Below, in pieces: positions 7,157-55,750 of a stretch of 64,000 bases of DNA. The notes below the pieces were generated by a model, which saw nothing but the letters and a program-made list of their open reading frames with translations, ran no database searches and was not told the origin of the DNA. Each line of letters starts with the position of its first letter. Position 1 is the stretch's first letter. Source of the DNA: Acidobacteriota bacterium (GTDB taxonomy: Bacteria; Acidobacteriota; Thermoanaerobaculia; Gp7-AA8); contig QHVT01000020.1 in the NCBI GenBank assembly GCA_003223645.1, positions 57,895 through 121,894 on the forward strand, written 5' to 3'. The position numbers and the translations under genes are program-made.

Positions 7157-7285
7157 CGCCGCGATTGTTTCAGCGCCGGCGAAAAGCGATCGTGCGATCC
7201 GTCACAATCCTCCGCCCGGCCCTCCTTCCGCCCTTCCCCCGAATCTTGACACTCTCTCCTCGCGCGACGACCATACCCGCCGTCC

Positions 7286-25186: not shown

Positions 25187-25221
25187 GCGCTGCACGATCG
25201 GTCCGGCGGCGCGGCGATTCA

Positions 25222-25238
25222 ATTACCTGACAGGTAAT
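25222..25238. promoter_or_regulatory. Operator palindrome, copy 1 (ATTACCTG-A-CAGGTAAT)
   Basis: A 17-bp palindrome with 8-bp perfect arms in the gap between the divergent MFS exporter and XRE regulator genes. It is part of a 46-bp segment (25193-25238) that recurs at 26906-26951 with 40 of 46 bases identical. Predicted binding site of the adjacent XRE regulator. Confidence 0.8.
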
Positions 25239-36850: not shown

Positions 36851-37366
36851 ATGGACGTCACGGCCCGGCTTGTCGACAGTCACCGCGATTTCCTCGGCTT
36901 CCTCGAACGCCGCCTCGGCGATCGCGCGCTGGCCGAGGACATCCTGCAGGACGCGTTCGTCAAGAGCATCGAGAAAGGCGCGGATTTGCGCGACGATGAG
37001 GCCGCGATCGCGTGGTTCTATCGGATGTTGCGCAATGCGGTGATCGATCATCATCGGCGCGCGGGTGTGCAGAACCGGCGACTGGAAGAGCTCGCGCGCG
37101 AGACGTCGCCGTCACCGGAAATCGAACGCGCGATCTGCGCGTGCGTCGGACACCTCGCTTCGACGCTGAAGCCGGAGTATGCGGACGCGATCCAGCGGAT
37201 CGAAGTCGAAGGCGCACCGTTGCAGACGTTCGCGGCCGAGGCGGGGATCACGGCGAACAACGCGGCGGTGCGCGTGCATCGCGCGCGCGAAGCGCTGCGC
37301 AAACAGGTGCACGCATCGTGCGGCACGTGCGCGGAGCACGGCTGCGTGGATTGCACATGCGCATGA
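36851..37366 (+). CDS. ECF sigma factor with C-terminal cysteine-rich domain (CorE-like, ECF44 type)
   Basis: 171 residues. Sigma region 2 ([46 protein letters not shown]) and region 4 ([38 protein letters not shown]) are complete. The tail ([18 protein letters not shown]) carries five Cys. In Myxococcus the CorE sigma factors use such a tail to sense copper directly without an anti-sigma factor and drive multicopper oxidase and P1B ATPase genes. The divergent copper ATPase here fits that model. The stop overlaps the next gene (ATGA). Confidence 0.88.
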
Positions 37367-37743
37367 GAATCTTGCTGGTTGCGGAGGCGGCGATCTTTTT
37401 GATCGCAGCGCGGTTTTTCTTTGGACTGGGCCAGCTGCGCTGGCGCTTTCCAAAGCGGCGGCGTAGCCGCCGCAGTCCAAAAGAGATCGCGCAGGCGATG
37501 CAATCCGCCGCACGCCACCTCCCGCTGCGCACCACGTGTCTCGATCGCTCGCGCGCTCTCTTCTGGATGCTGCGCGCGCACGGCTGTCCCGCGGAACTGC
37601 GCATCGGCGCGCGCCATGAAGATGGAACGCTCACTGCGCACGCATGGGTCGAACTTGACGGCGTGCCGCTGCTCGATGATGAAGCGCAGCGATTCACGGT
37701 CCTACGCGGAGCCTCCAAGCCTCCCAGCCTCCCGGCCTCCTAG
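37363..37743 (+). CDS. Lasso peptide B2-type leader peptidase (transglutaminase-like fold)
   Basis: 126 residues from ATG 37363, overlapping the sigma factor stop. The core matches the Transglut_core3/lasso B2 family: TTCLDRSRALFWMLRAHGC with nucleophile Cys59, LRIGARHEDGTLTAHAWVEL with His93, then Asp99 or Asp105. B2 proteases cut the leader from lasso precursors when guided by the PqqD-like B1 protein. The rest of the cluster lies 2 kb away on the other strand. Residues ~19-40 (LGQLRWRFPKRRRSRRSPKE) come from a family E palindrome and the last residues (SKPPSLPAS) from another palindrome, so activity is uncertain. Confidence 0.8.
   Translation: MRILLVAEAAIFLIAARFFFGLGQLRWRFPKRRRSRRSPKEIAQAMQSAARHLPLRTTCLDRSRALFWMLRAHGCPAELRIGARHEDGTLTAHAWVELDGVPLLDDEAQRFTVLRGASKPPSLPAS
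37419..37482. repeat. Palindromic repeat, family E copy 3, inside the lasso B2 gene
   Basis: ctttggactgggccagctgc facing gcggcgtagccgccgcagtccaaa, matching 23646-23722. It is read in frame as an Arg-rich stretch. Confidence 0.85.
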
Positions 37744-37936: not shown

Positions 37937-38482
37937 ATGCGGCGCGAGATCGAGATCGATGGACGGCGGATCGTCGTCGTGGACGACGTGCTCACCGGCG
38001 CGCGCCTGACGAACCTCGCGGCGTGGCTGGAGCTCGCGCCCGCGCAACGCGTCGAAGGCGATAGCGGTTCGTCCGAGGCGCGCTCGTGGAGCATTTCATT
38101 CGATCAGGATTCAGTCGCGAGCCAGCCGTATTACGACGCGATGATGCGCGAAGTCGGCGGCGTGTTTCCGGATGAGAAGTTCACGCTCAAACGCGCTTAC
38201 TGCAACGTCGTCAGCTTCGGCGACATCCTCGTTCCGCATCGCGACTCGCGCGCGGAGCGCGACGTCACCGCGCTGCTCTACGTCGCCGAAACGTGGGAAA
38301 GGAGTTGGGGAGGGGAGACGATTTTCTTCGACGACTCCGGCGACGCGAGGCATGTCGTCTCGCCCCGTCCTGGCCGTCTCGTGATGTTCCACTCGATCAT
38401 CGAGCACTGCGGCACGGCGCCGTCGCGGTTGTGCACGCGCGCGCGCATGACGCTCGCGCTCAAACTCCGAGCGGCCTCGTGA
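37937..38482 (+). CDS. 2OG-Fe(II) oxygenase (prolyl 4-hydroxylase-like)
   Basis: 181 residues. Iron ligands: H101 and D103 in VPHRDS, H157 in IIEHCGTAP; the 2-oxoglutarate-binding Arg is R168 or R170 in CTRARMTLAL. The family hydroxylates peptide side chains or small molecules. It overlaps the following PRMT-like gene by TGATG, so the two form one operon. Its position next to the B2 gene and the convergent lasso operon suggests a tailoring role on the lasso peptide; this is inferred from context only. Confidence 0.85.
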   Translation: MRREIEIDGRRIVVVDDVLTGARLTNLAAWLELAPAQRVEGDSGSSEARSWSISFDQDSVASQPYYDAMMREVGGVFPDEKFTLKRAYCNVVSFGDILVPHRDSRAERDVTALLYVAETWERSWGGETIFFDDSGDARHVVSPRPGRLVMFHSIIEHCGTAPSRLCTRARMTLALKLRAAS

Positions 38483-39381
38483 TGCAGCGCAAGCTCTCCA
38501 ACTCCGCGGCGATCCAGACGTTCAACTTTCATCGCTCGCTTCTCGAAGACTCCGCGCGCACGAACGCGTATCGCGCGGCGATCGAAGATGTCGTCCGCGA
38601 AGGCGACGTCGTCGCCGACATCGGCTGCGGCACCGGGATCCTGGCGATGTTCGCCTGCCGCGCCGGCGCGCGACGCGTGTACGCGATCGAAGAAGAGGCG
38701 GTGATCGAGATCGCGCGCGAGCTCGCGCACGCGAACGGCTTCGACGATCGCATCACGTTCATCGCCGGATCGTCGCTCAACGCGGCGCTGCCGGAGCGCG
38801 TCGACGTCGTCGTGACGGAGACGATGGGGAACAACGGCCTCGACGAGCAGATCGCCGGCACGATCGCGCACGCGCGCGACGCGTTTCTCAAAGAAGGGGG
38901 AACGATCATTCCGCGCGCGCTGGAAATGATCGCGGCGCCCGTGGAGCGGTCGTCATTTCACGAACGATGGCCCTCGTCGTACGGTCTCGATTTTTCGCCA
39001 GTGCGTGAACATGTCGTGAATCTCTTTCATCCGCTCGCGATCGCTCGCTCCGAGTTGCTCGCGACTCCTGCGACGATGGCGCGCGTCGATGCTCCCGCAG
39101 CGCGCGGCTCCGCGGCGTGGACGATCACGCGCGACGCAATGCTGAGTGGAATCGCGGTCTGGTTTCGCGCCGAGCTCACGCCGAGCATCGCGATCGCGAA
39201 CGAGCCCGAGTCGGAGCTCCGCTGCTGGAAGCAATCGTTCTTCCCGATCGCAGCGCCGCGCGCAGTGCGCGCGGGCGAAGTCGTGCGCGCGGAACTGCAG
39301 ACGTTTGACGGGATCGAGTGGGTGTGGCGCGTCGATGAGGAAACGCGGACGACGTTGAAGGGCTGGCCGATTTCGGTGTAG
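38482..39381 (+). CDS. PRMT-like class I SAM-dependent methyltransferase
   Basis: 299 residues. SAM-binding motif I DIGCGTGILAMFACRAGARR (residues 46-65), VYAIEEE for the ribose Glu, and the PRMT double-E loop ETMGNNGLDE (E113, E122), which in arginine methyltransferases binds the guanidinium group. C-terminal beta-barrel segment GIAVWFRAELTP. Start ATG 38482 overlaps the oxygenase stop. The predicted lasso core peptide contains three Arg, a possible substrate; inference. Confidence 0.85.
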   Translation: MQRKLSNSAAIQTFNFHRSLLEDSARTNAYRAAIEDVVREGDVVADIGCGTGILAMFACRAGARRVYAIEEEAVIEIARELAHANGFDDRITFIAGSSLNAALPERVDVVVTETMGNNGLDEQIAGTIAHARDAFLKEGGTIIPRALEMIAAPVERSSFHERWPSSYGLDFSPVREHVVNLFHPLAIARSELLATPATMARVDAPAARGSAAWTITRDAMLSGIAVWFRAELTPSIAIANEPESELRCWKQSFFPIAAPRAVRAGEVVRAELQTFDGIEWVWRVDEETRTTLKGWPISV

Positions 39382-39428: not shown

Positions 39429-39701
39429 TTACACGGCGCGAATCAAGTTGTTCTTCTCCAGCTCTCCGATGAACTGATCGAGATCGCTCTCGAGATCCGT
39501 GCGCGAGACTTCGTATTCTTCGAGCATCGTCTCGACGGCGTCGCCGACGGTGCGGTCGGCGGCGATCAGTTCCCAGAAGCGGCTGGCGACGGCGTCGAGG
39601 CCGAGGTACGTGCCGGCGTCGAGATCGAGCAGGACGATCTCGTCGCCGACGCGGTTGAACATCACGCCGTCGCGGATCGTGTAGTGCGCGTCGCGGTTCA
39701 T
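39429..39701 (-). CDS. PqqD-like RiPP recognition element protein (lasso B1)
   Basis: 90 residues. PqqD fold: YTIRDGVMFNRVGDEIVLLD, LDAGTYLGLDAVASRFWELI, then two helices. In lasso clusters this B1 protein binds the precursor leader at its YxxPxL motif and presents it to the B2 protease. Last gene of the minus-strand operon; its ATG overlaps the methyltransferase stop (ATGA). Confidence 0.9.
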   Translation of the reverse strand: MNRDAHYTIRDGVMFNRVGDEIVLLDLDAGTYLGLDAVASRFWELIAADRTVGDAVETMLEEYEVSRTDLESDLDQFIGELEKNNLIRAV

Positions 39702-40906
39702 CGTGCCGATGTTAAACGCATTACGAAGAGATGGCGGAACAGGCCGGGTTGCTGTTGTTCGATTTTGTCCCAGACGCGGAGATCGAGCTCGTCGCCGAGG
39801 CCGACGAAGCCGGCGAAGCGGAGTCCGGCGTCGCGGATCATCGCGTCGAGGTCGAGGGGCGTGAACTCGATCTCATGCGCGTGATAGAGCGTGTCGCGGA
39901 AGTGGCCGAGCTCGAAGAAGTCGAGGTCTTCGACTTCGGCGAGCTCGCGTTCGTCGAGCGCTGACAACATGCGCTCGCGTGCGCGGCGAATGTCGTCTCC
40001 CGGACCTCCGAGCTCGCGCAACCGCGCCAGCGAAGCGCGCGCGCGTTTGCTGTAGACGCCGATCACCATCTCGCCGTCATGCGCGAGCTGTTCGCGCAGT
40101 GCGCGCAACCCCTCGGTCGGATTCGCGAGGTGATGCAGCACGCCGACGGATTCGATGCGGTCGTAAGTCTCGCTCACGTCGCGGAGGTCGGCATGCAGGA
40201 AGCGGATGTTGTGCACGCCCATTTCGTTGGCCTTGCGCATCGCGTAGCCGAGGCTGGGGAGGCTGATGTCGATGGCATCGATGGACCAGGTGGGGTGGTG
40301 GAGGGCGAGGCGGATGGCGCTGCGGCCGGTGCCGCAGCCGGCGACGAGCGCGCGGCGCGGAGTGGCGTCGGGACTCGGTTCGGGGCGATGCATCGACAAC
40401 CATCGCGGATAGGGATGCCGTTCGTACTGCGCGCGCACGGCCGCGGTGACGGGATCATTCGCGATGCGCGGATTCGCGATGGTCGCGGCGAGGCGGCGCT
40501 CTTCGCGCGGCTCGTCGAACACGATGCGCACGAGGTCCGCGTATTCGGGATCGTCGCGGAGTCCGTCGCCGGACGTGAGCGGCTCGCCCCACGCGTAGCC
40601 GTTGAGGAACGACTGGATTGCGAGCGAGACCGCGAGTCTCTTCGACGGCGGGTTTTGCTGCAGGGCGATGAGGCGCTGCTCGAGTGCGTACGAGATGTTG
40701 ATGCAGTTGCGCAGATACGCGTGCAGCAGTTCGTCGACGTCGTCATCGTCGGCGTGCAGAAGAATGGATGCGACGGGGCGCGCGAGGTCCTGCAGGTCGA
40801 TCGAGTCGTCAGCGAACAGCGTCAGGAGCTGCCGCCGCACTTCCGGCGTCGCGCTCGTGAACTCGAGCGACGCGAGGCGCCGGACGAATTCCTGACGCGA
40901 GCTCAT
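39698..40906 (-). CDS. Class I SAM-dependent methyltransferase of the lasso operon
   Basis: 402 residues from ATG 40906. The N-terminal ~170 residues are helical and unrecognised. The methyltransferase core has motif I ALVAGCGTGRSAIRLA, acidic IDAIDISLPSLGYA, and RIESVGVLHHLANPTEGLRA. The C-terminal region (ELGHFRDTLYHAHEIEFTPL) is typical of methyltransferases that carry such helical N-termini. It overlaps the HPr-kinase-like gene by 98 bp. Possible roles are peptide tailoring or methylation of a carboxylate; undetermined. Confidence 0.85.
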   Translation of the reverse strand: MSSRQEFVRRLASLEFTSATPEVRRQLLTLFADDSIDLQDLARPVASILLHADDDDVDELLHAYLRNCINISYALEQRLIALQQNPPSKRLAVSLAIQSFLNGYAWGEPLTSGDGLRDDPEYADLVRIVFDEPREERRLAATIANPRIANDPVTAAVRAQYERHPYPRWLSMHRPEPSPDATPRRALVAGCGTGRSAIRLALHHPTWSIDAIDISLPSLGYAMRKANEMGVHNIRFLHADLRDVSETYDRIESVGVLHHLANPTEGLRALREQLAHDGEMVIGVYSKRARASLARLRELGGPGDDIRRARERMLSALDERELAEVEDLDFFELGHFRDTLYHAHEIEFTPLDLDAMIRDAGLRFAGFVGLGDELDLRVWDKIEQQQPGLFRHLFVMRLTSAR

Positions 40907-41801
40907 GACGCAAGTTTCGCACGTCGTCGACGATCGCATCCGCGAGATCGAAGACGGAGTCGAGACGCACGTTCGGAACGGCGAGGCGCAGCGGGACGCT
41001 CGCGGTGATGCGGCCAAGGCGTTCGAAATTCGTGGGGAGCAGCGACGCGTCGCGGACGCTGTGGTAGGTGTTGGCGATAAGATCGATGAGGCCGTCGCGC
41101 GGGGAGAGCGACTCGACGTGCGGCGCGGCGTCGCGACGATCGTCGATGCTGTAGATGGCCGCGAGCTCGAGGCGTTTGTCGGGCGTGTCCGGCAGCTCGG
41201 TGAAGTGCTTCCAGTCGGTCCCGGCGAGCCAGGGAAGTGCATGCGCGTCGCCGTAGATCAGCGCCGCGGCGTCACTCCACAGACGAAGGCGGCGATGCGA
41301 CGGGAGCACTTCGAAGCGATCGCCGTGATCGACCAGTGCGGTGACATCCTCGCTCACGATCGAGAAGCCGCGCTGCGCGAGGCACGCGGCGAGCGTCGAT
41401 TTTCCCGAACCGCCCGGGCCGGCAAAGGCGACTGCGACACCGTCGATGTTCGCGCAGCTCGCGTGCAGCACTTCGTGGCCGCGCAGGCGGAGGACGAAGG
41501 CCATGACGGTGTTGACGAGATAGATCGCGGCGAGCTCGGGCGGTCCGCTCGCGCGGATCGATGTTCCGTCGCGGTCGATGACGAACTGCGTGCCGTCGGG
41601 AAAATCGAAACGATAGCCGTCTCGTTTGCGAAAAACGGTGAACAGCGGACCGTCAATGAGTCGCTTCTGCAATGCGTGCGTCTCGCGAGCGACGTCGAGT
41701 GTGACATGGAGATCGATGTCGCCGGCTTCGGCGCCCGGCACCCCTGCGATCGGCACATTCGATGCGATCACGAGGTCATGGAGACGATGGAGGGAGGTCA
41801 C
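40809..41801 (-). CDS. HPr kinase/phosphorylase-like protein of the lasso operon
   Basis: 330 residues from GTG 41801, which overlaps the precursor stop (GTGA). P-loop GPGGSGKS at residues 128-135, preceded by HEVLHASCANIDGVAVAFAG and followed by GFSIVSEDVTALVD, the HprK-type catalytic core. In lasso clusters such as paeninodin a kinase of this type phosphorylates the C-terminal Ser of the precursor. The precursor here ends in Thr. The open frame extends upstream of 41801, but that part shadows the precursor gene. Confidence 0.85.
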   Translation of the reverse strand: MTSLHRLHDLVIASNVPIAGVPGAEAGDIDLHVTLDVARETHALQKRLIDGPLFTVFRKRDGYRFDFPDGTQFVIDRDGTSIRASGPPELAAIYLVNTVMAFVLRLRGHEVLHASCANIDGVAVAFAGPGGSGKSTLAACLAQRGFSIVSEDVTALVDHGDRFEVLPSHRRLRLWSDAAALIYGDAHALPWLAGTDWKHFTELPDTPDKRLELAAIYSIDDRRDAAPHVESLSPRDGLIDLIANTYHSVRDASLLPTNFERLGRITASVPLRLAVPNVRLDSVFDLADAIVDDVRNLRHELASGIRPAPRVARVHERDAGSAAAAPDAVR

Positions 41802-41941
41802 GTCCGCAGGTTGTTGGCGCCGCCGTCGCGGGTCGCGTTGCGGTTGGCGTTCTGGGTGAGCTGGCGGATGTCGCCGTAGACTTTGAGACGCGGCGGCGCG
41901 TACGGTTTCTTGGGCGGTTTCTGTGAAGGCTCGGTAGTCAT
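41798..41941 (-). CDS. Lasso peptide precursor (47 residues)
   Basis: Starts with ATG 41941 in an ATGA overlap with the cyclase stop and ends with TGA 41798-41800 overlapping the kinase GTG, so it is translationally coupled on both sides. Leader residues 14-29 read YAAPRLKVYGDIRQLT: the YxxPxL motif bound by PqqD-like proteins, the conserved Gly, and Thr at the penultimate leader position. Cleavage after Gln30 gives the 17-residue core NANRNATRDGGANNLRT. Asp39 is core position 9, matching the Asp/Glu at 7-9 that closes the macrolactam ring with residue 1. Asn as residue 1 is unusual (Gly, Ala, Ser or Cys are commoner). The C-terminal Thr could be phosphorylated. No second precursor was seen. 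Confidence 0.88.
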   Translation of the reverse strand: MTTEPSQKPPKKPYAPPRLKVYGDIRQLTQNANRNATRDGGANNLRT

Positions 41942-43644
41942 CGCCGTGCACGCAGCCAGTGCGCGAGGCAGAGTGGCAGCGTGAGCAGGAAAGAATCATA
42001 CAGCGATCGCGTTGGCGATCGAAGAACCTCGCCTAATACGCGGCGGTCGACCCATCGATCCAGTTCGGGCGTCATGTCGATCAGGCTCTGCAATTCGTCA
42101 CGCTGGCGATCGATCAGTAAGTGAGCAGGGTCCATGCCGATCGGCGTTTTTCTCCGCAGCCGCGCCAGTTCCGGGAGCCGCCCGCGCATCGCCTCGCGCG
42201 GCAATTCTTTTTCCGCGAACCACGGCATCGGCGGCACGCGCAGGAGAAAGCGCACGAGCGGCACGTCGAGAAGCGGATTGCGATATTCGATGCGCGCGCC
42301 CATCGCCGCGGGATCGGTGTACTCATTGAGCCGCTGCCAGCCGGCGCCGAGGAGGAGACCGTGGGCCTGTGGGCGCGTGGGATGAAGCTCGGGAAGATCG
42401 TTCCAGTAATCGTCCCAGCGCTCGCGCAGATCGTAGTGAATCCAGGCCGGGTACGGATCGCGCGGCGCGCGAATGCCGCGCGCCTTGCGCAGACTCGAGC
42501 GCAAACCGAGCGGAGGGAGTCGCCGTTTGCGAATCAGATGCGCGCCGACTTCGGTGAAGAAGCGGATGAAGCGCGCCCGACGGAGGAGTTGCCAGAAATA
42601 CGAATGCGACGCGTAGAACACGGCGTCGCCGCCCTGGCCGGCGAGCATGACCGGAGCATGATTCGCGGCGTCGCGAAACTGGTCCGTCGTGATCGCGGAG
42701 AAGGGATCATTCGACGGCTCGTCTTTGATGTACGAGGAGTCGTCCCACTTCTCGAACATCCGGTGGCGATCGGCGCGGATGATCCGCAGGTCGATCGCGA
42801 GCCGCTCCGCGACCGCGCGCGCGAAGCGCTCTTCGTCGTCGGGCACGAGCGGGTCCCACACGATCGTGTACGCGGTGATGTTTGGCGAGGCGTGACGCGC
42901 GCGAAGCACTTCGGCAGCGACGGTGGTAATCGTCGTCGAGTCGAGTCCTCCGCTCATCGATGCAGTGATCGACGAGCTGCCGATGCGACTCGCAACCGCG
43001 CGAGTCAGATGTTCGTTGAAGGCATCGATCACCTCGCGTCGATCGCGGAACACGATCGGCTCCTCGACCGGCAGGTCGAACCAGCGCTTGATCTCGATGT
43101 CGCTGCCGCGAACGAACATCGAGTGACCGGCAGGAAGCGTGCGGATTTGCGCGAACGTCGTCGCCGACGGATCGAGGCCGATGCTGAAGAGCAGAAACTC
43201 CGCGATCGCGTTGTTGTCGAGATCATTCGCAACCTGCGATCGCACCGCGGCGAGCGCGGAGGAAAAGACGAACGTGTCGCCGCGATGCGCGTAATAGAAC
43301 GGCTTGACGCCGAAGGCGTCGCGCGCGGCGAAGAGCGAGCGGGCTTCCGCATCCCAGATCGCGAACGCGAAATCGCCGAAGAGATGCGATGCGGCGTCCG
43401 CTCCCCAGCGGCGATACGCATCGAGAACCGTGGCAGCGTCGCAATCACCGACGATCCAGCGAACGCCGTCGATCGTCATCGGCATCATCGGACGCGGGCG
43501 TTCCGGATCGGAGTCGAAGTGCGCATACGCGAGTGAAGCGTCGTCCGCATTCCTCGTGTGCGTTCCGTGCGGAGCGGTTCGCTCGAGAACGGCGATCATG
43601 TCCGCAAGCCGGCCGCGACCGATGATTCCGGCGAAGCCACTCAT
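41938..43644 (-). CDS. Asparagine-synthetase-like lasso cyclase (C protein)
   Basis: 568 residues from ATG 43644. The N-terminal glutaminase-like domain starts MSGFAGIIGRG, with Ser where true asparagine synthetases have catalytic Cys2, so glutamine hydrolysis is not expected. The ATP-pyrophosphatase domain has SGGLDSTTI (about 231-239). In lasso clusters this enzyme adenylates the Asp/Glu side chain and closes the macrolactam. Start chosen at 43644 because it overlaps the oxygenase stop (ATGA) and aligns with the family N-terminus; its stop overlaps the precursor start. Confidence 0.92.
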   Translation of the reverse strand: MSGFAGIIGRGRLADMIAVLERTAPHGTHTRNADDASLAYAHFDSDPERPRPMMPMTIDGVRWIVGDCDAATVLDAYRRWGADAASHLFGDFAFAIWDAEARSLFAARDAFGVKPFYYAHRGDTFVFSSALAAVRSQVANDLDNNAIAEFLLFSIGLDPSATTFAQIRTLPAGHSMFVRGSDIEIKRWFDLPVEEPIVFRDRREVIDAFNEHLTRAVASRIGSSSITASMSGGLDSTTITTVAAEVLRARHASPNITAYTIVWDPLVPDDEERFARAVAERLAIDLRIIRADRHRMFEKWDDSSYIKDEPSNDPFSAITTDQFRDAANHAPVMLAGQGGDAVFYASHSYFWQLLRRARFIRFFTEVGAHLIRKRRLPPLGLRSSLRKARGIRAPRDPYPAWIHYDLRERWDDYWNDLPELHPTRPQAHGLLLGAGWQRLNEYTDPAAMGARIEYRNPLLDVPLVRFLLRVPPMPWFAEKELPREAMRGRLPELARLRRKTPIGMDPAHLLIDRQRDELQSLIDMTPELDRWVDRRVLGEVLRSPTRSLYDSFLLTLPLCLAHWLRARR

Positions 43645-44267
43645 GCGAGCGCGGACCAGTAGTCCGTTTCCGCGGCGACGAACCATCCCGCGAACGCGGT
43701 CTTCGGCGTCACTCCGTGCACCGGCCGGACGCGATGCTCGAATTCGGCGCCGATCGCGAAGAGGATCGCGTCGCCCGCGCCGGTGTTGGCGATCGTGACG
43801 ATGCGATCGTCCTGTTTTCGACGAATCTGAAACTCGCCGCCCGCGAATGGAGCGCCGAGGTTGATGCTGAAGCCGATGAGACGCGTGCCGGCGGCGTTGT
43901 CGTCATGCCACGAGTCGTGATGCGGCACCTGCGGATCGAAACGATAAACGCGCCCGCTCGTGATCGTCGTCTGGGCGTTGCCTGTGATCAGCGCGACCGC
44001 ATCGCGCACCTGCGGCGCGTTCATGACGAACGTGAGCAGATCGAGCGCGCGACTCGCATCGAGACAAAGCTCGACTGCGATTCCGGCGTCCTCGCGGGTT
44101 GAAAACGTACTTTTCGCGATGAGCGCTTGCACGGTCTCGAGCAGCTGTTGGTCGAGGAATCCGCGAACGCGGACGACGTGATCGCGTTCAAAATCCTCGC
44201 GCAATGCGGCGAGCTCGCCGCGATCGCCTACGGTGACTCCGGCGCGTGTCGCTTCGAGGAGGGGCAT
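43641..44267 (-). CDS. 2OG-Fe(II) oxygenase, first gene of the lasso operon
   Basis: 208 residues. Fe ligands: HHDSWHDD (most likely H121 and D123) and a distal His in FEHRVRPV; R in RPVHGVTPKTAF is a candidate 2-oxoglutarate ligand. The fold is prolyl 4-hydroxylase-like. Directly coupled to the cyclase gene, so beta-hydroxylation or another oxidation of the precursor (Asn- and Asp-rich core) is plausible; some known lasso pathways use such enzymes. The gene upstream, in the same direction, is a broken RelA/SpoT-like gene. Confidence 0.85.
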   Translation of the reverse strand: MPLLEATRAGVTVGDRGELAALREDFERDHVVRVRGFLDQQLLETVQALIAKSTFSTREDAGIAVELCLDASRALDLLTFVMNAPQVRDAVALITGNAQTTITSGRVYRFDPQVPHHDSWHDDNAAGTRLIGFSINLGAPFAGGEFQIRRKQDDRIVTIANTGAGDAILFAIGAEFEHRVRPVHGVTPKTAFAGWFVAAETDYWSALA

Positions 44268-44273
44268 GGGGGA

Positions 44274-44923
44274 TTACGCGTGCGGTTCAGCCGAACCCTG
44301 ATGGATTGCAGACTCGAATTCCAGCTCAAACGCTTTCAATGCCGTCAGAACGTCATTTCTTCGCTGAATGACCGTTTCTGATCGCACCAATCCGTGCAAG
44401 TTGGGATTCGGCTTGTAAATTGCCGAATGTTCTACTTCCCAGAACAGGCCCACGAGAAGGGAAACGATTTGTATCTCGGCGTTTACGCGAGCGCCTGCGT
44501 TCCACTTGCCAAAATATTTGAGCGCCAGCGGCCCTGCGGCTTCGGATATGCCCGGAACTGGATCCGCCGTCCACGATGTCAGCATCGGTAGTAAGGCGAT
44601 TCGCGCATCGTCAAAACGCTGCTGCGGGAACGCCATACCCGAACCGCCGCCAGATCGGGAAGGCTGGTTAGGGAGTAGGTGTCCGTGCGCTGAGGATCGA
44701 ACAGACCCAGCGTCTGTCGGCGGCGCAAAGCATCGACTGCGCTGTCGCATTCCTTGGCGCGCGAAGTGACGAGCAGCCGCTCGTAACGCTGCAGGGCCAA
44801 TGTGTTTTCAAGAAGCTGGCGCCGCACGCGCGTTTCGGTCTCGACTACGGTACGGCGGATTTCCGGCAGAAGATCGAAGTACTCTTCGCGAAGGCGATCT
44901 TCGACGGTTCGTCCGTTACCCAT
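44274..44923 (-). pseudogene. RelA/SpoT-like nucleotidyltransferase, frameshifted
   Basis: Two overlapping frames together cover a RelA/SpoT domain. Frame 1 (44923 to ~44600): YFDLLPEIRRTVVETETRVR, LLVTSRAKECDSAVDALRRR, DTYSLTSLPDLAAVRV. Frame 2 (44636 to 44274): MAFPQQRFDDARIAL, then NAEIQIVSLLVGLFWEVEHS and AIYKPNPNL, the EIQI...WEVEHxAiYK signature. The join at CGGGTATGGCG needs one extra base, so a 1-bp deletion (or sequencing error) splits the gene. The ATG at 44636 is probably an internal codon. It follows a 78-residue gene with 8 bp overlap, an arrangement like bicistronic toxic small alarmone synthetases. Confidence 0.75.
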
Positions 44924-45152
44924 TCACTTCAGCGAGGAATGTATCGATGACTGCCTGTGAGGGCTCTGAATTGAGATACAGCCTCCAGTCGCTGTTACGC
45001 TCGTCGAGCGCCTGTTGCAATTCGTCATCGCTGTGATCTTCGAGCCAATCAACGCTGAACGCCTTCTTCTCCGCGCGGTTGACGTAGACCATCCGATCGA
45101 AGTTATAGACATACGCGCGGGCTTTGAGAACCGGCTCCTTTTGCGTTCGCAT
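44916..45152 (-). CDS. Small protein paired with the RelA/SpoT-like gene (candidate antitoxin)
   Basis: 78 residues: KARAYVYNFDRMVYVNRAEK, then FSVDWLEDHSDDELQQALDE and YLNSEPSQAVIDTFLAEV. Acidic with a helical C-terminal half; no DNA-binding motif. It overlaps the RelA/SpoT-like start by 8 bp. The antitoxin assignment rests only on this pairing and size. Confidence 0.55.
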   Translation of the reverse strand: MRTQKEPVLKARAYVYNFDRMVYVNRAEKKAFSVDWLEDHSDDELQQALDERNSDWRLYLNSEPSQAVIDTFLAEVNG

Positions 45153-47270: not shown

Positions 47271-47662
47271 GCGGGGTTGGCCCTCGAAACAACGGCGTTC
47301 GCGGGGTATTTCCTCAGGCGGTCGAGAAGCGGCGTGGCCATGGCGGTCGTTACCAGCGCCATCAGCAGGGCCATGGTGAAAAGTTCTGCGAGATGACGCC
47401 GATGTCAGGTATTTGAGCAGCAGTTTGAACCAGGCCTGACGCGGATCACGGATGGATTCAGTGCCGCGTCAAAGAGACGATTTCTGATTGCGCGGAATTT
47501 GCGCAGGACTTACGGATCAATCACGGTGTGCGGCCCTATGATCGGCCGTCCAAAATTGACGCGGCCGGCTGAGCGGACGCGTCGTCCAACAATCCAAAAC
47601 CGGTGTTGACCCGCAACGGCAGGGTTGCGGGACTGCCGTCAATCGACGTGTGTGAGGAATCG
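47271..47662. other. 392-bp gap upstream of the giant DUF11 gene
   Basis: No supported gene. It holds the upstream regions of the DedA gene (-) and the giant gene (+). Close to the start is a small inverted repeat, acggcagggttgcgggactgccgt, and gaggaat serves as ribosome binding site for ATG 47663. Nothing else recognised. Confidence 0.5.
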
Positions 47663-50600
47663 ATGCCGCTGACTCGTGCGAAGTTTTATGTAACCGGTTT
47701 CCTGCTGTTGGCTTTCGTTGTCCCCGCCGCGCATGCCGCGCTGACGGTCACGCCGATCACCTGGAACGTCATCGGTCTCGACAGCAACGACGTGAACACC
47801 GGACCGAACAACTTCCCGGTCGGCGCGCGCGTCTGCAGCAACGTCGCGACGACGAACGTCTCGGTCAGCTACGTCTGGGACACGTTCAACGCGTTCATCG
47901 ACCTCCGCGCCGGATCGCTCTCGACCGTCAACGTCCCGTCGATCGGCGCGGGCGCGTGCGCCGATGCCTACTTCGAAGTCACGGTCGTCCGCAACGCCTC
48001 GGCGTACAACAACACGCGCCGCTATCACATCACCGCGACCGATTTCTCCGGCACGGCATCGACTCCGACGCCGCGCGAGGTCTTCATCGAGCACCTCATC
48101 TCGCAGAATCGCAACTCCATCAGCGACGTGAAGTACGGGCCGGTCGGCGGTCCGTATACGTCCGTTCCATCCGGCGGCTCGATGGCGCTCGTCGTCGGCA
48201 ACACCTACGACATCCAGCTCTTCGGCGGCACGGCGACGCAGGGCTACAACCAGTTCGAAGAATTCATCAACTTCCCGAACACGATCTTCCAGATCACCAA
48301 CGTCAACACGACCTACTCCGCCGACAACTCGCCGTACGTTCCCAATCCCAACAACAAGCTCTACGCCGATGCCTGCCAGTGGGAGAACGACCCGAACAGC
48401 CCGAACTACCGCGCGTGTGTGGGCGGCGACTTCAAGGCCGGCGGCAGCAACGTCGTCACGACCTACACGCTGAAGATCATCGGCGGCGGCGGCACGAACC
48501 AGTCCCTCGGCTCGCTGCTCTATGACTTCTCCGGCAGCAGCTACCACTACAACGCCGACTACGGCACCGGCGCGCGCATCGCCAGCATCATCGATCCGTC
48601 GACGGCGAACATCGCGAAGGCGTTCACGCCGAACACCGTCGGCGTCAACGGCGTCGCCGTGCTCACGATCACGCTGACGAATCCGAACGGCGGAGCGCTC
48701 AGCGGCTACAACTTCGTCGACAACCTGCCGGCCAACCTCGTCATCGCGACGCCGAACGGAGCGACGACTTCCGGCTGCGGATCGCCGACGCTGACCGCGA
48801 CCGCGGGATCGAGCACGATCTCGTTCTCCAACGGCACGGTCGCCGCGAACGGCTCGTGCGTCATCAACGTGAACGTGACGCCGACGACGACCGGCGCGAA
48901 GCTCAACACGACGAACAATCTGTTCGTCGGCACGACCGACACGGGACACAACGCCAGCGCGTCGCTGACCGTGAACAACGCGCCGCCTCCCGGCACGGGA
49001 CTCTGCGGCATCACGCTCGCGCTGTGGGAGTTCCCGACCGGCTTCAATGTCACCAATCCCGCTCCGACGACCGCGAGTGTTCCCGCGGGTGCGGCACACG
49101 GCACCGTCAACGCCATCGCGACTTCGCACGACAGCACGATCAATCCTTCCGCCGGCACGACGTCATGGGGAGCGAACGGCGGGATTCCGACCGGTGCGTT
49201 GGTCACCGCGAACGACGATTACTTCGAGTTCGCGATCGACACCACCGGCGTCAGCTCCGTCTCGTTCAGCTTCGACGCCGAGTATCGCGCCGCCAACGGA
49301 CCGCAGGGAGTCAACGTCTTCTACGGCACGACCAACGCGCGGCCGGAGGCGGGCACCCAGATCATCGACCCGAGCCTCGGCTCGAGCGCGCTCACCGCCA
49401 CCGGGCAGAACGCGTGGAAGCATTTCGGCCCCTTCAACCTCAATACCGGTTTGGCTCCCGCCGGCAACACCTACTTCCGCGTCTACTTCTCCGACTCCGG
49501 CAACACGAACTCCGGCTCTGACGGCGAGCTCGATCACGTCCTCCTCACCGGCTGTCTGGCTCCCATCCAGCCGACGATCGCGAAGGCGTTCGCACCGAAC
49601 CCGATCGCGGTGAGCGCCGTCTCCACGCTCACGTTCACGCTCACGAACACGAATACCGCTGCGCTCACCGGCGCCGCATTCACCGACAACCTGCCGGCGG
49701 GCGTGCAGGTCGCGGCGACGCCGGCGGCTTCGACGACGTGCGCCGGCGCCACGTGGGCGCCACTCGCGGGGAACACGACGCTGACGTTCAGCGGCGGAAC
49801 GATTCCGGCGAGCGGCTCCTGCACCGTCAGCGTCAACGTGACCGCGACGACCGCGGGTCCGCACTCGAACGTCAGCGGACCTCTCTCGACGACGGAGGGC
49901 GGCACGAACACGTCGAGTCTTGCGACAGCGACGTTGACGGCGCTCATGCCTCCGTCGATCGCGAAAGTGTTCTCGCCGTCGCCGATCATTCCGAACGGCG
50001 TCTCAACGCTCACGTTCACGATCACCAATCCGAACCAGAACAACTCCCTCGGCGGCATCGCCTTCAACGACACGTTCCCGGTCGCGCCGGGCGCGATGGT
50101 CGTCGCGGCAACACCGAATGCGACGACGAGCGGATGCGGCGCGCCCACGTTTGCGCCGGTCGCCGGCGCGGGATCGATCTCGTTCTCCGGCGGCACGATC
50201 GCAGCGGGAGCGATCTGCACCGTCACCGTCAACGTGACGGCGCCGAACGCCGGCACGTACAACAACACCAGCGGCCCGGTGTCGACGATCATCAACGGCT
50301 CGCCCGTCAACGGCAACACCGCGTCGGGCTCGCTGGTCGTCAATCCTCCGAATCCGTCGATCCACTTGCTCAAGCAGGTCGGGCCGAGCAACACGGGACC
50401 GTGGACGCCCTTCCTGAAGACTCCTGTCGGCGGAAACGTGTTCTACCGGTTCACGGTCGAGAACACGGGCGACGTTCCGCTGCTATCGCCGACCCTCACC
50501 GACAACAACGTCAACGTCTCGGCGTGCAACGCGAGCTGGAGCGGATTGACGCTGCCGGTCGCGGTGCCGGCGAATGACAATCACATCATCACCTGCATCG

Positions 50601-53600
50601 TCGGTCCGATCAGCGCGGCGAGCGGCTCGCATCCCAATACGGCGAGCGTCAGCGCGACGTTCAACGGCAACCCGGTGGCGTCGCCGAATTCGATCGCCAC
50701 GTATGCGACGACCGGCCTCACTCTCGTGAAGAGCGCGACGCAGACGACGTTCACGAACGCCGGCGACACGCTGAACTACTCGTACCTCGTGACCAACAGC
50801 GGCTTCGCGCCGCTGCAGGGTCCGGTCACCGTGAGCGACGACAAAGCGACGGTGACGTGTCCCGCGGTCACGACCGTCGGCGATCTCGACAACTTCCTCG
50901 ATCCCGGCGAGTCGATCACCTGCACCGCGTCGTACATCGTCACGGCAACCGACGTGTCGAACGCGAAAGTGACGAACACGGCCACCGCGACGGTCGACGG
51001 CGTCAACTCGAACCAGAGCAGCAAGACCGTTCCGCTGTCGACGTCCGCCGACGTCAGCGTCACGAAGACGCTCGACACCGCCGCGCCGTATTTCGCGGGC
51101 CAGTCCATCACCTACACGATCACGGTGGCGAACGCCGGTCCGTCGACGGCGACGAACATCAACGTCACCGACACCCCGACGAATCTCACGATCACGAACG
51201 TGAGCGGCGCCTGCACGTCGTTCGCGCCGTGCGTCATCGCCAGCCTCGCCTCGGGCGCGAACACGGTCATCACCGTCACCGCGACGATCAACGCCGCGGG
51301 CGCGTTCGACAACAGCACCACCGTCTCCGCGACGCAGCCCGATCCGAATCCGGGCAACAACACCGACAACACCGGCAACGGCGGTACGGCCACGCTGCTG
51401 GTCGACGTCACGATGAACAAGCAGTTGACGACCGGCGGGCCGTTCACGGCCGGCCAGTCGATCAGCTACACGCTCACCGTCGGCAACAACGGTCCGTCGA
51501 CCGCGACGAGCGTGCAGGTCACGGACACACCGACGAATCTCACGATCACCAATGTCAGTGGCGGCGGCTGCTCGATGCCGTTCCCGCCCTGCACGATCCC
51601 GAGCATCAACTCCGGCGGAAACGTCGTGCTCACCGTGACGGCGACGATCAACGCCGCCGGCGCGTTCGATAACAGCGCAACTGCAACGCCGGCCGAGACC
51701 GATTCGAACAACGGCAACAACACCGACAACAGCGGCAACAACGGCACCGCCGCCGCGTCGGCGGACGTGTCGGTGGTCAAGACGTTGACGACCAGCGGTC
51801 CGTTCAGCGCCGGCCAGACGATCAGCTACACGCTGACCGTCGCGAACGCCGGTCCGTCGACGGCGACGAACATCAACGTCACCGACACGCCGGCGAACCT
51901 CACGATTACGAACGTCAGCGGTGCCTGCACGTCGTTCGCGCCGTGCGTCATCGCCAGCCTCGCCTCCGGTGCGAACACGGTCATCACCGTGACGGCGACG
52001 ATCAACGCCACCGGTGCGTTCGACAACAGCGCGACCGCGACCGGGACGGAGTCTGATCCGAACCCAGGCAACAACACCGACAACAGCGGCAACGGCGGCA
52101 CGGCCGCGGCCTCCGCGGACATCTCGGTGGTCAAGACGTTGACGACGAGCGGACCGTTCACGGCCGGCCAGTCGATCAGCTACACGCTGACCGTCGCCAA
52201 CGCCGGTCCGTCCACCGCGACGAACGTGCAGGTCACCGACACGCCGACGAACCTTACGCTCACGAATTTGACGGGCGGCGGATGCTCGCTGCCGTTCCCC
52301 TGCACGATTCCGAGCATCAACTCCGGCGCGAACGTCGTGCTCACCGTGACGGCGACGATCAACGCCGCCGGCGCATTCGACAACAGCACGACCGTGTCGG
52401 CGACGGAGCCCGATCCGAACAGCGGCAACAACACCGACAACAGCGGCAACGGCGGGACCGCTGCTGCATCCGCGGACGTCACGGTAGTCAAGACGTTGAC
52501 GACCAGCGGACCATTTACTGCGGGCCAGTCGATCAGCTACACGCTGACCGTCGCGAACGCCGGTCCGTCGACGGCGACGAACATCACCGTCACCGACACG
52601 CCGACAAACCTCACGATCACGAACGTGAGCGGCGCCTGCACGTCGTTCTCACCCTGCGTCATCGCCAGCCTCGCCTCCGGTGCGAACACGGTCATCACCG
52701 TGACGGCGACGATCAACGCCGCCGGCGCGTTCGATAACAGCGCGACCGCGACGGGAACGGAGTCCGATCCGAACCCGGGCAACAACACCGACAACAGCGG
52801 CAACGGCGGCACGGCCGCGGCTTCCGCCGACGTGTCGGTCGTCAAGACGTTGACGACGAGCGGACCGTTCAACGCCGGCCAGTCGATCAGCTACACGCTG
52901 ACCGTCGCGAATGGCGGTCCATCGACGGCGACGAACATCACCGTCACCGACACGCCGACGAATCTCACGATCACCAACGTGAGCGGCGCCTGCACGTCGT
53001 TCGCGCCGTGCATCATCGCCAGCCTCGCCTCGGGCGCGAACACGGCCATCAACGTGACCGCGACGATCAACGCCTCCGGCGCGTTCGACAACGTGGCGAC
53101 CGCGAACGGCACGGAGTCCGATCCGAATCAGGGCAACAACACCGACAACAGCGGCAACGGCGGCACCGCCGGCACCTCCGCCGATGTGTCGGTGGTCAAG
53201 ACGTTGACGACCGTCGGACCGTTCATTGCGGGGCAGTCGATCAGCTACACGCTGACCGTCGCGAACGCCGGTCCGTCGACGGCCACGAACATCACCGTCA
53301 CCGACACGCCGACGAACCTCACGATCATGAACGTGAGCGGCGCCTGCACGTCGTTTTCACCCTGCATCATCGCCAGCCTCGCCTCGGGCGCGAACACGGT
53401 CATCAACGTGACGGCGACGATCAACGCCTCCGGCGCCTTCGACAACAGCGCGACCGCCACGGGCACCGAGCCTGACCCGAACCCCGGCAACAACACCGAC
53501 AACACCGGCAACGGCGGCAGCACCAACGCGGCCGACATCTCGGTCGTGAAGACGCTCGTCACGAGCGGACCGTTCACGGCCGGCCAGTCGATCAGCTACA

Positions 53601-55750
53601 CGCTGACCGTGGCCAATGCCGGTCCGGCGACGGCGACGAACATCAACGTGACGGACACGCCGACGAACCTCACGATCACGAACGTGAGCGGTGCCTGCGC
53701 GTCGTTCTCGCCCTGCATCATCGCCAGCCTCGCCTCGGGCGCGAACACGGTCATCAACGTGACGGCGACGATCAACGCCGCCGGCGCGTTCGACAACAGC
53801 ACCACCGTCTCCGGCACGGAAACCGATCCGAACCCCGGCGACAACACCGACAGCACCAACAACGGCGGCACGGCCGCCGCGTCCGCGGATGTGTCCGTGG
53901 TCAAGACGTTGACGACCGCCGGACCGTTCGTGGTCGGCCAGTCGATCGGCTACACACTGACCGTGGCCAACGGCGGCCCGTCGACGGCGACGAACATCAC
54001 CGTCACCGACACGCCCACGAACCTCACCATCACGAATGTCAGCGGTGCCTGCACGTCATTCTCGCCGTGCATCATCGCCAGCCTAGCCTCGGGCGCGAAC
54101 ACGGTCATCACCGTGACGGCCACGATCAACGCCGCCGGCGCGTTCGACAACGTGGCCACCGCGAACGGCACCGAGTCCGATCCGAACCCGGGCAACAACA
54201 CCGACAGCACTGGCAACGGCGGCACCGCCGCGGCATCCGCGGACGTGTCGGTGGTCAAGACGTTGACGACCGCGGGACCGTACAGCGCCGGCCAGTCGAT
54301 CAGCTACACGCTGACCGTCGCCAACGCCGGTCCGTCGACCGCGACGAACGTGCAGGTCACGGACACGCCGACGAACCTGACGCTCACGAACCTGAGCGGC
54401 GGCGGCTGCTCGCTGCCGTTCCCCTGCACGATTCCGAGCATCAACTCCGGTGCGAACGTCGTGCTCACCGTGACGGCGACGATCAACGCCGCCGGCGCGT
54501 TCGACAACAGCACGACCGTTTCCGCGACCGAGACCGATCCGAATACGAACAACAACTCCGACAGCAGCGGCAACGGCGGCACGGCCGCCGCGTCGGCGGA
54601 CGTCTCGATGGTCAAGACGTTGACGACCGCCGGGCCGTTCATCGCCGGCCAGTCGATCAGCTATACGCTGACCGTCGCCAACGCCGGTCCGTCGACCGCG
54701 ACGAACATCAACGTTACGGATACGCCGGCGAACCTCACCATCACGAACGTGAGCGGCGCCTGCACGTCGTTCTCGCCGTGCATCATCGCCAGCCTCGCCT
54801 CGGGTGCGAACACGGTCATCACCGTGACGGCGACGATCATCGCTCCGGGCGCGTTCGACAACAGCGCCACCGCGACGGCGACGGAGACCGATCCGAACCC
54901 CGGCAACAACACCGACAACACCGGCAACGGCGGCAGCACCAATTCCGCGGACGTGGCAATCGTCAAGACGTTGCTCACCAGCGGTCCGTTCACGGCCGGC
55001 CAGGCGGTGAGCTACACGCTCCAGGTCACGAACAACGGTCCGTCGACGGCGACGAACGTCACCGTGACGGATACGCCGACGAATCTCACGATCACCAACG
55101 TGAGCGGCGCCTGCACATCGTTCTCGCCGTGCGTCATCGCCAGCCTCGCATCCGGCGCGAACACGGTCATCAACGTCACGGCGACCATCAACGCCGGCGG
55201 CGCCTTCGACAACAGCACGACCGTCTCCGCCACCGAGACCGATCCCGTTCCGTCGAACAACACCGACAACACCGGCAACGGCGGCACGGCCGCGGCGTCG
55301 GTGACGGTCGACCTCGCGCTCACCAAGACCGCGAACGTGACACTGGTGCAGATCGGCCAGCCCTTCGACTACACGCTGACGCTCCACAACAACGGCCCCG
55401 GCACCGCCACCGGCGTGGTCATGACCGACTCCCTGCCGGCGAACTTCCAACTGCAGACCGTAACGTCGACACAGGGAACGTGCAGCGGCACGACCACCGT
55501 GACCTGCACGATCGGCACGATGCTGAACGGCGCGACCGTCACGATCACCATCCACGGCACCGCGACGCACGCCGGCACGCTCATGAACACCGCGACCGCC
55601 GCCGCCAACGAGACCGAGACCATCACCGCCAACAACACCTCGAGCGTGGCAGTCGTCGTCAGCGGCGACGGCCCCACCCTCAGCCCCCTCAGCCTGATGC
55701 TCCTCGCACTCATGCTGACTGCGGTGGCCATCGTCGTGATGCGCAGGTAG
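47663..55750 (+). CDS. Giant secreted DUF11-repeat protein with IPTL-like C-terminal sorting signal
   Basis: 2695 residues from ATG 47663 (6 nt after gagg). Signal peptide TRAKFYVTGFLLLAFVVPAA. The N-terminal ~300 residues are unique. Three units beginning IAKAFTPN, IAKAFAPN and IAKVFSPS follow (from ~48600, ~49567, ~49950), separated by a beta-sandwich-like insert. From 51046 there are 12 near-identical ~118-residue DUF11 units (VVKTLTTSGPFTAGQSISYT, NITVTDTPTNLTITNVSGAC) and one diverged unit. The C-terminus GPTLSPLSLMLLALML, a second hydrophobic stretch and MRR match the PTL + helix + Arg layout of IPTL-CTERM signals, implying processing by an exosortase-like enzyme, none of which is in the window. 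Probably a fibrous cell-surface adhesin or matrix protein. Confidence 0.88.
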   Translation: MPLTRAKFYVTGFLLLAFVVPAAHAALTVTPITWNVIGLDSNDVNTGPNNFPVGARVCSNVATTNVSVSYVWDTFNAFIDLRAGSLSTVNVPSIGAGACADAYFEVTVVRNASAYNNTRRYHITATDFSGTASTPTPREVFIEHLISQNRNSISDVKYGPVGGPYTSVPSGGSMALVVGNTYDIQLFGGTATQGYNQFEEFINFPNTIFQITNVNTTYSADNSPYVPNPNNKLYADACQWENDPNSPNYRACVGGDFKAGGSNVVTTYTLKIIGGGGTNQSLGSLLYDFSGSSYHYNADYGTGARIASIIDPSTANIAKAFTPNTVGVNGVAVLTITLTNPNGGALSGYNFVDNLPANLVIATPNGATTSGCGSPTLTATAGSSTISFSNGTVAANGSCVINVNVTPTTTGAKLNTTNNLFVGTTDTGHNASASLTVNNAPPPGTGLCGITLALWEFPTGFNVTNPAPTTASVPAGAAHGTVNAIATSHDSTINPSAGTTSWGANGGIPTGALVTANDDYFEFAIDTTGVSSVSFSFDAEYRAANGPQGVNVFYGTTNARPEAGTQIIDPSLGSSALTATGQNAWKHFGPFNLNTGLAPAGNTYFRVYFSDSGNTNSGSDGELDHVLLTGCLAPIQPTIAKAFAPNPIAVSAVSTLTFTLTNTNTAALTGAAFTDNLPAGVQVAATPAASTTCAGATWAPLAGNTTLTFSGGTIPASGSCTVSVNVTATTAGPHSNVSGPLSTTEGGTNTSSLATATLTALMPPSIAKVFSPSPIIPNGVSTLTFTITNPNQNNSLGGIAFNDTFPVAPGAMVVAATPNATTSGCGAPTFAPVAGAGSISFSGGTIAAGAICTVTVNVTAPNAGTYNNTSGPVSTIINGSPVNGNTASGSLVVNPPNPSIHLLKQVGPSNTGPWTPFLKTPVGGNVFYRFTVENTGDVPLLSPTLTDNNVNVSACNASWSGLTLPVAVPANDNHIITCIVGPISAASGSHPNTASVSATFNGNPVASPNSIATYATTGLTLVKSATQTTFTNAGDTLNYSYLVTNSGFAPLQGPVTVSDDKATVTCPAVTTVGDLDNFLDPGESITCTASYIVTATDVSNAKVTNTATATVDGVNSNQSSKTVPLSTSADVSVTKTLDTAAPYFAGQSITYTITVANAGPSTATNINVTDTPTNLTITNVSGACTSFAPCVIASLASGANTVITVTATINAAGAFDNSTTVSATQPDPNPGNNTDNTGNGGTATLLVDVTMNKQLTTGGPFTAGQSISYTLTVGNNGPSTATSVQVTDTPTNLTITNVSGGGCSMPFPPCTIPSINSGGNVVLTVTATINAAGAFDNSATATPAETDSNNGNNTDNSGNNGTAAASADVSVVKTLTTSGPFSAGQTISYTLTVANAGPSTATNINVTDTPANLTITNVSGACTSFAPCVIASLASGANTVITVTATINATGAFDNSATATGTESDPNPGNNTDNSGNGGTAAASADISVVKTLTTSGPFTAGQSISYTLTVANAGPSTATNVQVTDTPTNLTLTNLTGGGCSLPFPCTIPSINSGANVVLTVTATINAAGAFDNSTTVSATEPDPNSGNNTDNSGNGGTAAASADVTVVKTLTTSGPFTAGQSISYTLTVANAGPSTATNITVTDTPTNLTITNVSGACTSFSPCVIASLASGANTVITVTATINAAGAFDNSATATGTESDPNPGNNTDNSGNGGTAAASADVSVVKTLTTSGPFNAGQSISYTLTVANGGPSTATNITVTDTPTNLTITNVSGACTSFAPCIIASLASGANTAINVTATINASGAFDNVATANGTESDPNQGNNTDNSGNGGTAGTSADVSVVKTLTTVGPFIAGQSISYTLTVANAGPSTATNITVTDTPTNLTIMNVSGACTSFSPCIIASLASGANTVINVTATINASGAFDNSATATGTEPDPNPGNNTDNTGNGGSTNAADISVVKTLVTSGPFTAGQSISYTLTVANAGPATATNINVTDTPTNLTITNVSGACASFSPCIIASLASGANTVINVTATINAAGAFDNSTTVSGTETDPNPGDNTDSTNNGGTAAASADVSVVKTLTTAGPFVVGQSIGYTLTVANGGPSTATNITVTDTPTNLTITNVSGACTSFSPCIIASLASGANTVITVTATINAAGAFDNVATANGTESDPNPGNNTDSTGNGGTAAASADVSVVKTLTTAGPYSAGQSISYTLTVANAGPSTATNVQVTDTPTNLTLTNLSGGGCSLPFPCTIPSINSGANVVLTVTATINAAGAFDNSTTVSATETDPNTNNNSDSSGNGGTAAASADVSMVKTLTTAGPFIAGQSISYTLTVANAGPSTATNINVTDTPANLTITNVSGACTSFSPCIIASLASGANTVITVTATIIAPGAFDNSATATATETDPNPGNNTDNTGNGGSTNSADVAIVKTLLTSGPFTAGQAVSYTLQVTNNGPSTATNVTVTDTPTNLTITNVSGACTSFSPCVIASLASGANTVINVTATINAGGAFDNSTTVSATETDPVPSNNTDNTGNGGTAAASVTVDLALTKTANVTLVQIGQPFDYTLTLHNNGPGTATGVVMTDSLPANFQLQTVTSTQGTCSGTTTVTCTIGTMLNGATVTITIHGTATHAGTLMNTATAAANETETITANNTSSVAVVVSGDGPTLSPLSLMLLALMLTAVAIVVMRR
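51046..55300 (+). repeat. Twelve tandem ~354-bp repeats encoding DUF11 domains
   Basis: Each unit starts near gcggacgtgtcggtggtcaa. Two versions alternate irregularly: most carry a TNVSGACTSFSPC loop, while units 2, 4 and 10 carry a GGGCS loop followed by PFPCTIPSINSG. High DNA identity between units suggests recent duplication or gene conversion. Confidence 0.9.

Follow-up and report, generated by a model that had tools for sequence, protein, structure and literature searches.

We found that a 47-residue open reading frame on the minus strand of the window (the whole 64-kb stretch of DNA analysed, located in G000:C33; the G000 genome comprises 6.38 Mb in 51 contigs) is, as judged by its sequence, a lasso-type precursor of a strongly conserved core family, and that it lies in a lasso-type pathway. 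The core family, NxxR[NS]xxRDGGxNxxRT, is new; the lasso kind is already known. It is highly probable that the encoded peptide is cut after Gln30 and closed into an Asn1-Asp9 lasso ring, with Thr17 phosphorylation and core methylation likely coming first. The features concerned are given below; L032 denotes the precursor locus of a related genome, G002, which belongs to a different genus.

36851..37366, plus strand: ECF-type sigma factor, putative in its role; its stop overlaps the B2 ATG at 37363 (ATGA)
37363..37743, plus strand: gene B2, transglutaminase-like leader peptidase; an alternative start at 37357 is possible
37937..38482, plus strand: FlmC-like 2OG-Fe(II) oxygenase (134 bits, cut-off 240); adjoins the PRMT-like gene in L032 too
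38482..39381, plus strand: PRMT-like methyltransferase with an intact Glu pair in the double-Glu loop and Cys in place of the THW-loop His
39429..39701, minus strand: gene B1, leader-binding protein of the PqqD-like kind, with TbiB1 as its nearest solved relative
39698..40906, minus strand: gene M, SAM methyltransferase of class I whose N-terminal part is all-helical; seen with this cluster type
40809..41801, minus strand: gene K, HprK-like kinase scoring under the model cut-offs; GPGGSGKS as P-loop, His113, Lys134, Ser135 and Glu151-Asp152
41798..41941, minus strand: precursor gene A, 47 aa, ATG start, stop codon included
41852..41941, minus strand: predicted leader, residues 1-30, with YAPPRL, YGDIRQLT, Thr at -2 and Gln at -1; putative cleavage site
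41801..41851, minus strand: predicted core NANRNATRDGGANNLRT, with a predicted 9-residue ring between Asn1 and Asp9 and Thr17 as a predicted phosphorylation site; putative chemistry
41938..43644, minus strand: gene C, lasso cyclase of the Asn-synthetase-like type, with SGGLDS as PPi loop and without Cys at position 2
43641..44267, minus strand: 2OG-Fe(II) oxygenase (PF13640), heading the coupled operon and overlapping C by 4 bases; putative role

The translation of gene A is MTTEPSQKPPKKPYAPPRLKVYGDIRQLTQNANRNATRDGGANNLRT. Its first 4 bases are shared with the stop of C (ATGA, 41938-41941) and its last 4 with K (GTGA, the GTG start of K being at 41801), and the frame, its Gly, its Thr at -2 and both overlaps were found as the first-pass annotation had claimed them. 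Its leader motif is of the YxxPxL type that had been reported, but the letters are YAPPRL and not YAAPRL. The two marks by which lasso leaders are recognised, YxxPxL and Thr at -2, are thus both present, and an acid, expected at core position 7, 8 or 9 of a lasso peptide, is found as Asp at position 9 in the window and in L032. A strict rule combining leader and ring matched gene A alone in the 64-kb window and had no match in 300 first-order Markov windows. The protein fell below the cut-offs of the NCBIfam precursor models NF033528 lasso_cyano (22.1 bits, cut-off 33) and NF033521 lasso leader (17.0 bits, cut-off 19), which are detection thresholds and not a defining property of the lasso class; it shares the leader motif of these models and differs in its RDGG core. 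A sequence search of the PDB with gene A gave no match.

When 100 related genomes were searched with the precursor, a single strong relative was obtained, in G002 (63% identity, E 1.7e-13), and the next-best match was at 1.3e-4. In L032 the gene order C, A, K, M, B1 is that of the window, and the converging PRMT-like and FlmC-like genes are kept as well; the contig ends inside C, short of the place of the first oxygenase. Over the aligned pairs the identity was 55% for the PRMT-like protein, 61% for M and 55% for K. Gene A of L032 may start inside the C stop (ATGA), or at a later ATG as in relatives such as P0003. The leader motif is kept and 10 of 17 core residues are identical, so the expectation that the precursor would be conserved at the same position in related clusters was borne out.

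The family was then collected from 5.77 billion proteins. With the two precursors as query, 59 proteins at E<=0.01 were found among 69 candidates; a second search with 36 of the first-round precursors gave 898 matches, the best 120 of which were listed. Both lists together hold 139 different precursors, including those of the window (P0002) and L032 (P0001). Thr at -2 was present in all 139. The first acid from position 7 onwards stood at position 9 in 115, and elsewhere in the remaining 24 listed precursors (10 in 14, 7 in 5, 8 in 5). The core NxxR[NS]xxRDGGxNxxRT was shared by 57 of the 139 listed precursors, as counted with the pattern N..R...RDGG.N..RT at the C-terminal end, which by itself fixes Asn1, Asp9 and the length of 17 residues. 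In all 57 a single residue separates the leader Thr from the start of the pattern, a distance that is not built into it. The fixed positions are in part a product of how the sequences were chosen, since similarity searching yielded the relatives and the core pattern defined the 57. Among the first 36 precursors by E-value (P0001-P0036 all have the C-terminal Thr17 of the window and L032), core positions 1, 4, 8-11, 13, 16 and 17 were invariant, while positions 2, 3, 6, 7, 15 and leader position -1 varied. By its sequence, the core family fits a 9-residue Asn1-Asp9 ring.

Beyond the pattern, 27 of the 82 off-pattern precursors listed end in KT or RT; P0066 has Ser1 and P0080 a broken end. Three relatives, P0083-P0085, have Lys at core positions 4, 8 and 16, which suggests that positive charge rather than arginine alone is conserved there. 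Canonical leaders with the first acid at core position 10 were observed at L090 10812-10985, L051 9037-9267, P0044 and P0046-P0048; such precursors make up 14 of the 139 listed, with Thr counted as -2. Within the class, a two-row profile matched 16 of 148 genomes, at 134 bits in G002, 98 bits in G000 and 19 to 32 bits in the other 14. Across the phylum (396 genomes, evenly drawn), a 36-row profile gave 90 bits for the window and seven more matches at 31 to 37 bits; the match in G080 is L051, and G002 is not among the matching genomes of that search. In the lasso leader model check that had been proposed, the window precursor stays under both cut-offs, and 57 of the 59 first-round alignment members, the window's included, match lasso_cyano at E<=0.01, with matches of the relatives reaching 5.4e-09. 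The description of the gene as unannotated was only partly right; relatives have been called by annotation pipelines, and NCBI already lists P0024 as a lasso leader peptide, the other relatives being hypothetical proteins.

The minus-strand genes form a coupled run of 2OG oxygenase, C, A, K, M and B1. The oxygenase and C share 4 bases, as do M and B1; the K/M overlap measures 98 bases in the window and 4 bases in L032. The earlier proposal that a PqqD-like B1, a B2 protease and an Asn-synthetase-like C define a lasso pathway was upheld, all three proteins matching lasso families. C contains a PF00733 Asn_synthase domain (121.7 bits); among the NCBIfam models it matches a lasso cyclase model best, at 241 bits, which is below the cut-off of 525. 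B1 has a PqqD domain (Pfam, 65.3 bits; NCBIfam 49.9 of 80, below the cut-off), and its nearest solved structures are the lasso B1 proteins TbiB1 (5.7e-14) and TfuB1. B2 reached 75.3 bits against NF033537 (cut-off 33), the only one of A, B1, B2, C and K to pass a curated NCBIfam lasso cut-off. B2 (37363-37743) lies outside the run on the opposite strand, and thus the operon is not complete, contrary to the first-pass annotation; no ABC exporter was found among the proteins scanned, which cover some but not all frames of the window. No second B2 was found in G000. A B2 in trans is not odd here, because the only B2 of G002 and the B2 of G080 are on different contigs from their precursors.

Several other observations concern the surroundings of these genes. 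The ECF-type sigma factor, a possible regulator candidate, has a Cys-rich end. In G002, at L046 5847-7426, the only B2 is followed and overlapped by a nucleotidyltransferase (PF14907) gene. An MFS transporter gene at 24029-25222 is some 12 kb away from B2, and positions 7250-8320 encode an ABC substrate-binding protein. Directly upstream of the operon, at 44277-45152, are three small overlapping minus-strand frames (158, 114 and 78 aa) without a Pfam match, and at 47603-55750 there is an open frame of 2715 residues whose translation is rich in near-identical tandem repeats. Rfam and promoter searches of the window found nothing, and 12 terminator-like sites were counted in it versus 6.3 in shuffles.

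K scored 36.1 of 200 in NCBIfam and 21.1 of 33.3 with Pfam Hpr_kinase_C, both below the cut-offs, and a PDB sequence search with it gave no match. The spacing of its His...Lys-Ser...Asp residues equals that of BsfK, with Glu-Asp where Asp-Asp is expected. According to the parts of the reports available, BsfK phosphorylates a lasso precursor at Ser3 (PMC10368454) and PadeK phosphorylates the C-terminal Ser of its precursor (PMC9266682). As far as those texts go, the paeninodin-type (PadeK, ThcoK, SyanK) and BsfK peptides likewise have an HprK-like kinase in the operon, and PadeA has a C-terminal hydroxy residue as the window precursor does; in contrast to them, the window has a C-terminal Thr instead of Ser, Glu-Asp instead of Asp-Asp, and a different core. 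Thr17 of the family is predicted to be the natural candidate for phosphorylation.

M was strong in only two of the 148 class genomes (at most 12 candidates being scored per genome), G000 and G002, which are also the two genomes with strong precursor matches; two further class genomes matched at about 61 bits, by the methyltransferase domain alone. In P0144 an M homologue is fused to a B1 domain that is 60% identical to the B1 of the window. Six of the 21 closest M homologues listed (P0141-P0161, the window's own excluded) share their longest-contig size with an RDGG precursor (2960, 8371, 15126, 152073, 386099 and 6379), and the tags QOH21_3430 and QOH21_3432 place a precursor and M two genes apart; both links are circumstantial. 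In the model of M (pLDDT 92.6) the N-terminal part is all-helical, and the PDB structures nearest to its methyltransferase domain are Rv2067c and PKMT1, both protein lysine methyltransferases, with a TM-score of about 0.45. The window core contains no Lys. In the accessible portions of the literature, the methylated lasso peptides of StspM (C-terminal ester) and LihM/TceM (aspartimide) also have a SAM methyltransferase in the cluster; unlike these, M of the window is nearest to lysine methyltransferases, a PRMT-like enzyme is added, and the core has no Asp or Glu besides Asp9.

A profile of the PRMT-like proteins from the window and L032 matches PRMT6 at 4e-43. The double-Glu and THW loops are presumably motifs of protein arginine methyltransferases; the former reads TETMGNNGLDEQ in the window and TETMGNNGFDEQ in L032, with both Glu present, and the THW-loop His is absent (RCW in the window, VSW in L032). 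PRMT-like genes occur in at least 25 places in 17 of the 148 class genomes, a lower bound since at most 15 candidates were scored per genome, and 11 of these 25 places, including the window and L032, adjoin lasso genes. Ten lasso-associated sequences were aligned; L091 (contig end) and L107-L109 (short or weak), four of the 25 places, were left out. Seven of the ten (L051, L052, one of two in L090, L092, L100, L101 and L103) have Asp for the first Glu, and six of these also lack the second, which L052 retains. Where only the altered type occurs and the precursor is readable (five loci), the core is Arg-free in L051, L092, L100 and L103 and has one Arg in L052. Both Glu are kept in three of the ten (window, L032 and L090), with 3, 3 and 1 core Arg, respectively. 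The altered gene, mostly with SDLRG, was observed after the kinase gene in L051, L052, L090, L092, L100 and L103, mostly with Arg-free cores. The idea that the PRMT-like protein serves lasso clusters in general as a core-arginine enzyme was rejected, the loop being altered in 7 of 10 and the cores there mostly Arg-free. Intact loops together with Arg-bearing cores fit Arg methylation here, as read from a small sample of sequences.

The first oxygenase of the operon (43641-44267) gave a poor single-sequence model (pLDDT 42.7) and no match in a PDB sequence search. The CanE-hydroxylated lasso peptide canucin, in the text available on it, likewise has a 2OG-Fe(II) oxygenase with its cluster; the window differs in having two oxygenases and no C-terminal Asp.

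The order of the genes, their overlaps and motifs, their conservation and their family matches are seen directly; from these we infer every chemical step and the threaded shape. B1 would bind the leader at YxxPxL...YGDIR and present the linear precursor to K and M. Before leader removal and cyclisation, K would phosphorylate Thr17 and the core would be methylated, with Arg favoured; the likely source of Arg methylation (Arg4, Arg8, Arg16) is the converging PRMT-like enzyme, and both 2OG oxygenases probably act as hydroxylases. B2 would then cut after the residue following the leader Thr, and C would activate Asp9 by adenylation and link it to the amine of Asn1 during threading of the tail GGANNLRT, Arg16 and phospho-Thr17 being the likely plug.

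That the small frame is a chance, untranslated one in a compact operon is extremely improbable. The frame is short, and the core codon identities between the window and L032 are flat (12, 10 and 11 of 17 at positions 1, 2 and 3), without a third-position excess of change in this one weak pairwise comparison; over 41 codons, dN was 0.32 and dS 0.94 (NG86, also a weak pairwise test). However, position, leader motif and core are conserved in L032, 57 listed precursors have one core, and the Markov windows gave no match. Lack of conservation, which the first-pass annotation had named as evidence against the frame, was thus not what we observed in L032 and in those 57 of 139 listed precursors. A modified but unthreaded peptide, in which the cyclase forms a simple branched macrolactam (or another bond) to give a phospho-methyl peptide without the lasso fold, is also unlikely, if less so. 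The tail is short (8 residues) and without an aromatic plug, and Asn1 as the ring residue was not found in the available part of the lasso literature searched; yet the core lasso functions are all encoded, and the first acid is at position 9 in most (115 of 139) of the listed precursors.

A distinctly possible, though still doubtful, reading is that the lasso precursor is tailored by K and M only, the PRMT-like and FlmC-like genes being neighbours without effect on it. These two genes are on the opposite strand, PRMT-like genes occur without a lasso gene nearby by tblastn (L093-L098), and the double-Glu loop is altered in the majority of the lasso-associated PRMT-like proteins. On the other side, the order and convergence of both genes are kept in two genera, and the 11 of 25 places adjoining lasso genes argue for an association in the class. 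The favoured reading, an Asn1-Asp9 lasso peptide with Thr17 phosphorylated and the core methylated, can be extended to the proposal that this is the first arginine-methylated, phospho-capped lasso family, with an Asn1-Asp9 ring on a nearly invariant scaffold of 17 residues, a PRMT-type enzyme acting on conserved Arg and a dedicated B1-coupled peptide methyltransferase; taken as a whole, this extension is rather unlikely.

Lasso clusters have been reported from acidobacterial soil as BGC 40.1, 482.1 and 44.1 (PMC9064862). In the available text, they share the phylum and B1, B2 and C with the window, and 482.1 has a kinase, annotated as aminoglycoside-phosphotransferase-like and unlike the HprK-like K; the main text of that paper makes no use of the word methyltransferase, whereas the window cluster has M. 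Literature searches for lasso with Thermoanaerobaculia, and for lasso with core position 1 and cyclase, found nothing.

Lasso genes of the group to which the window precursor belongs can escape the curated precursor models. Among the lasso tailoring enzymes named in the portions of the review literature available, the two methyltransferase families found here do not appear, and the conserved core Arg make a test of the PRMT-like enzyme direct. Lasso cores often differ from producer to producer. The near-unchanged core in 57 listed sequences suggests one conserved target or role, because this core recurs while the preceding residue and five core positions vary.
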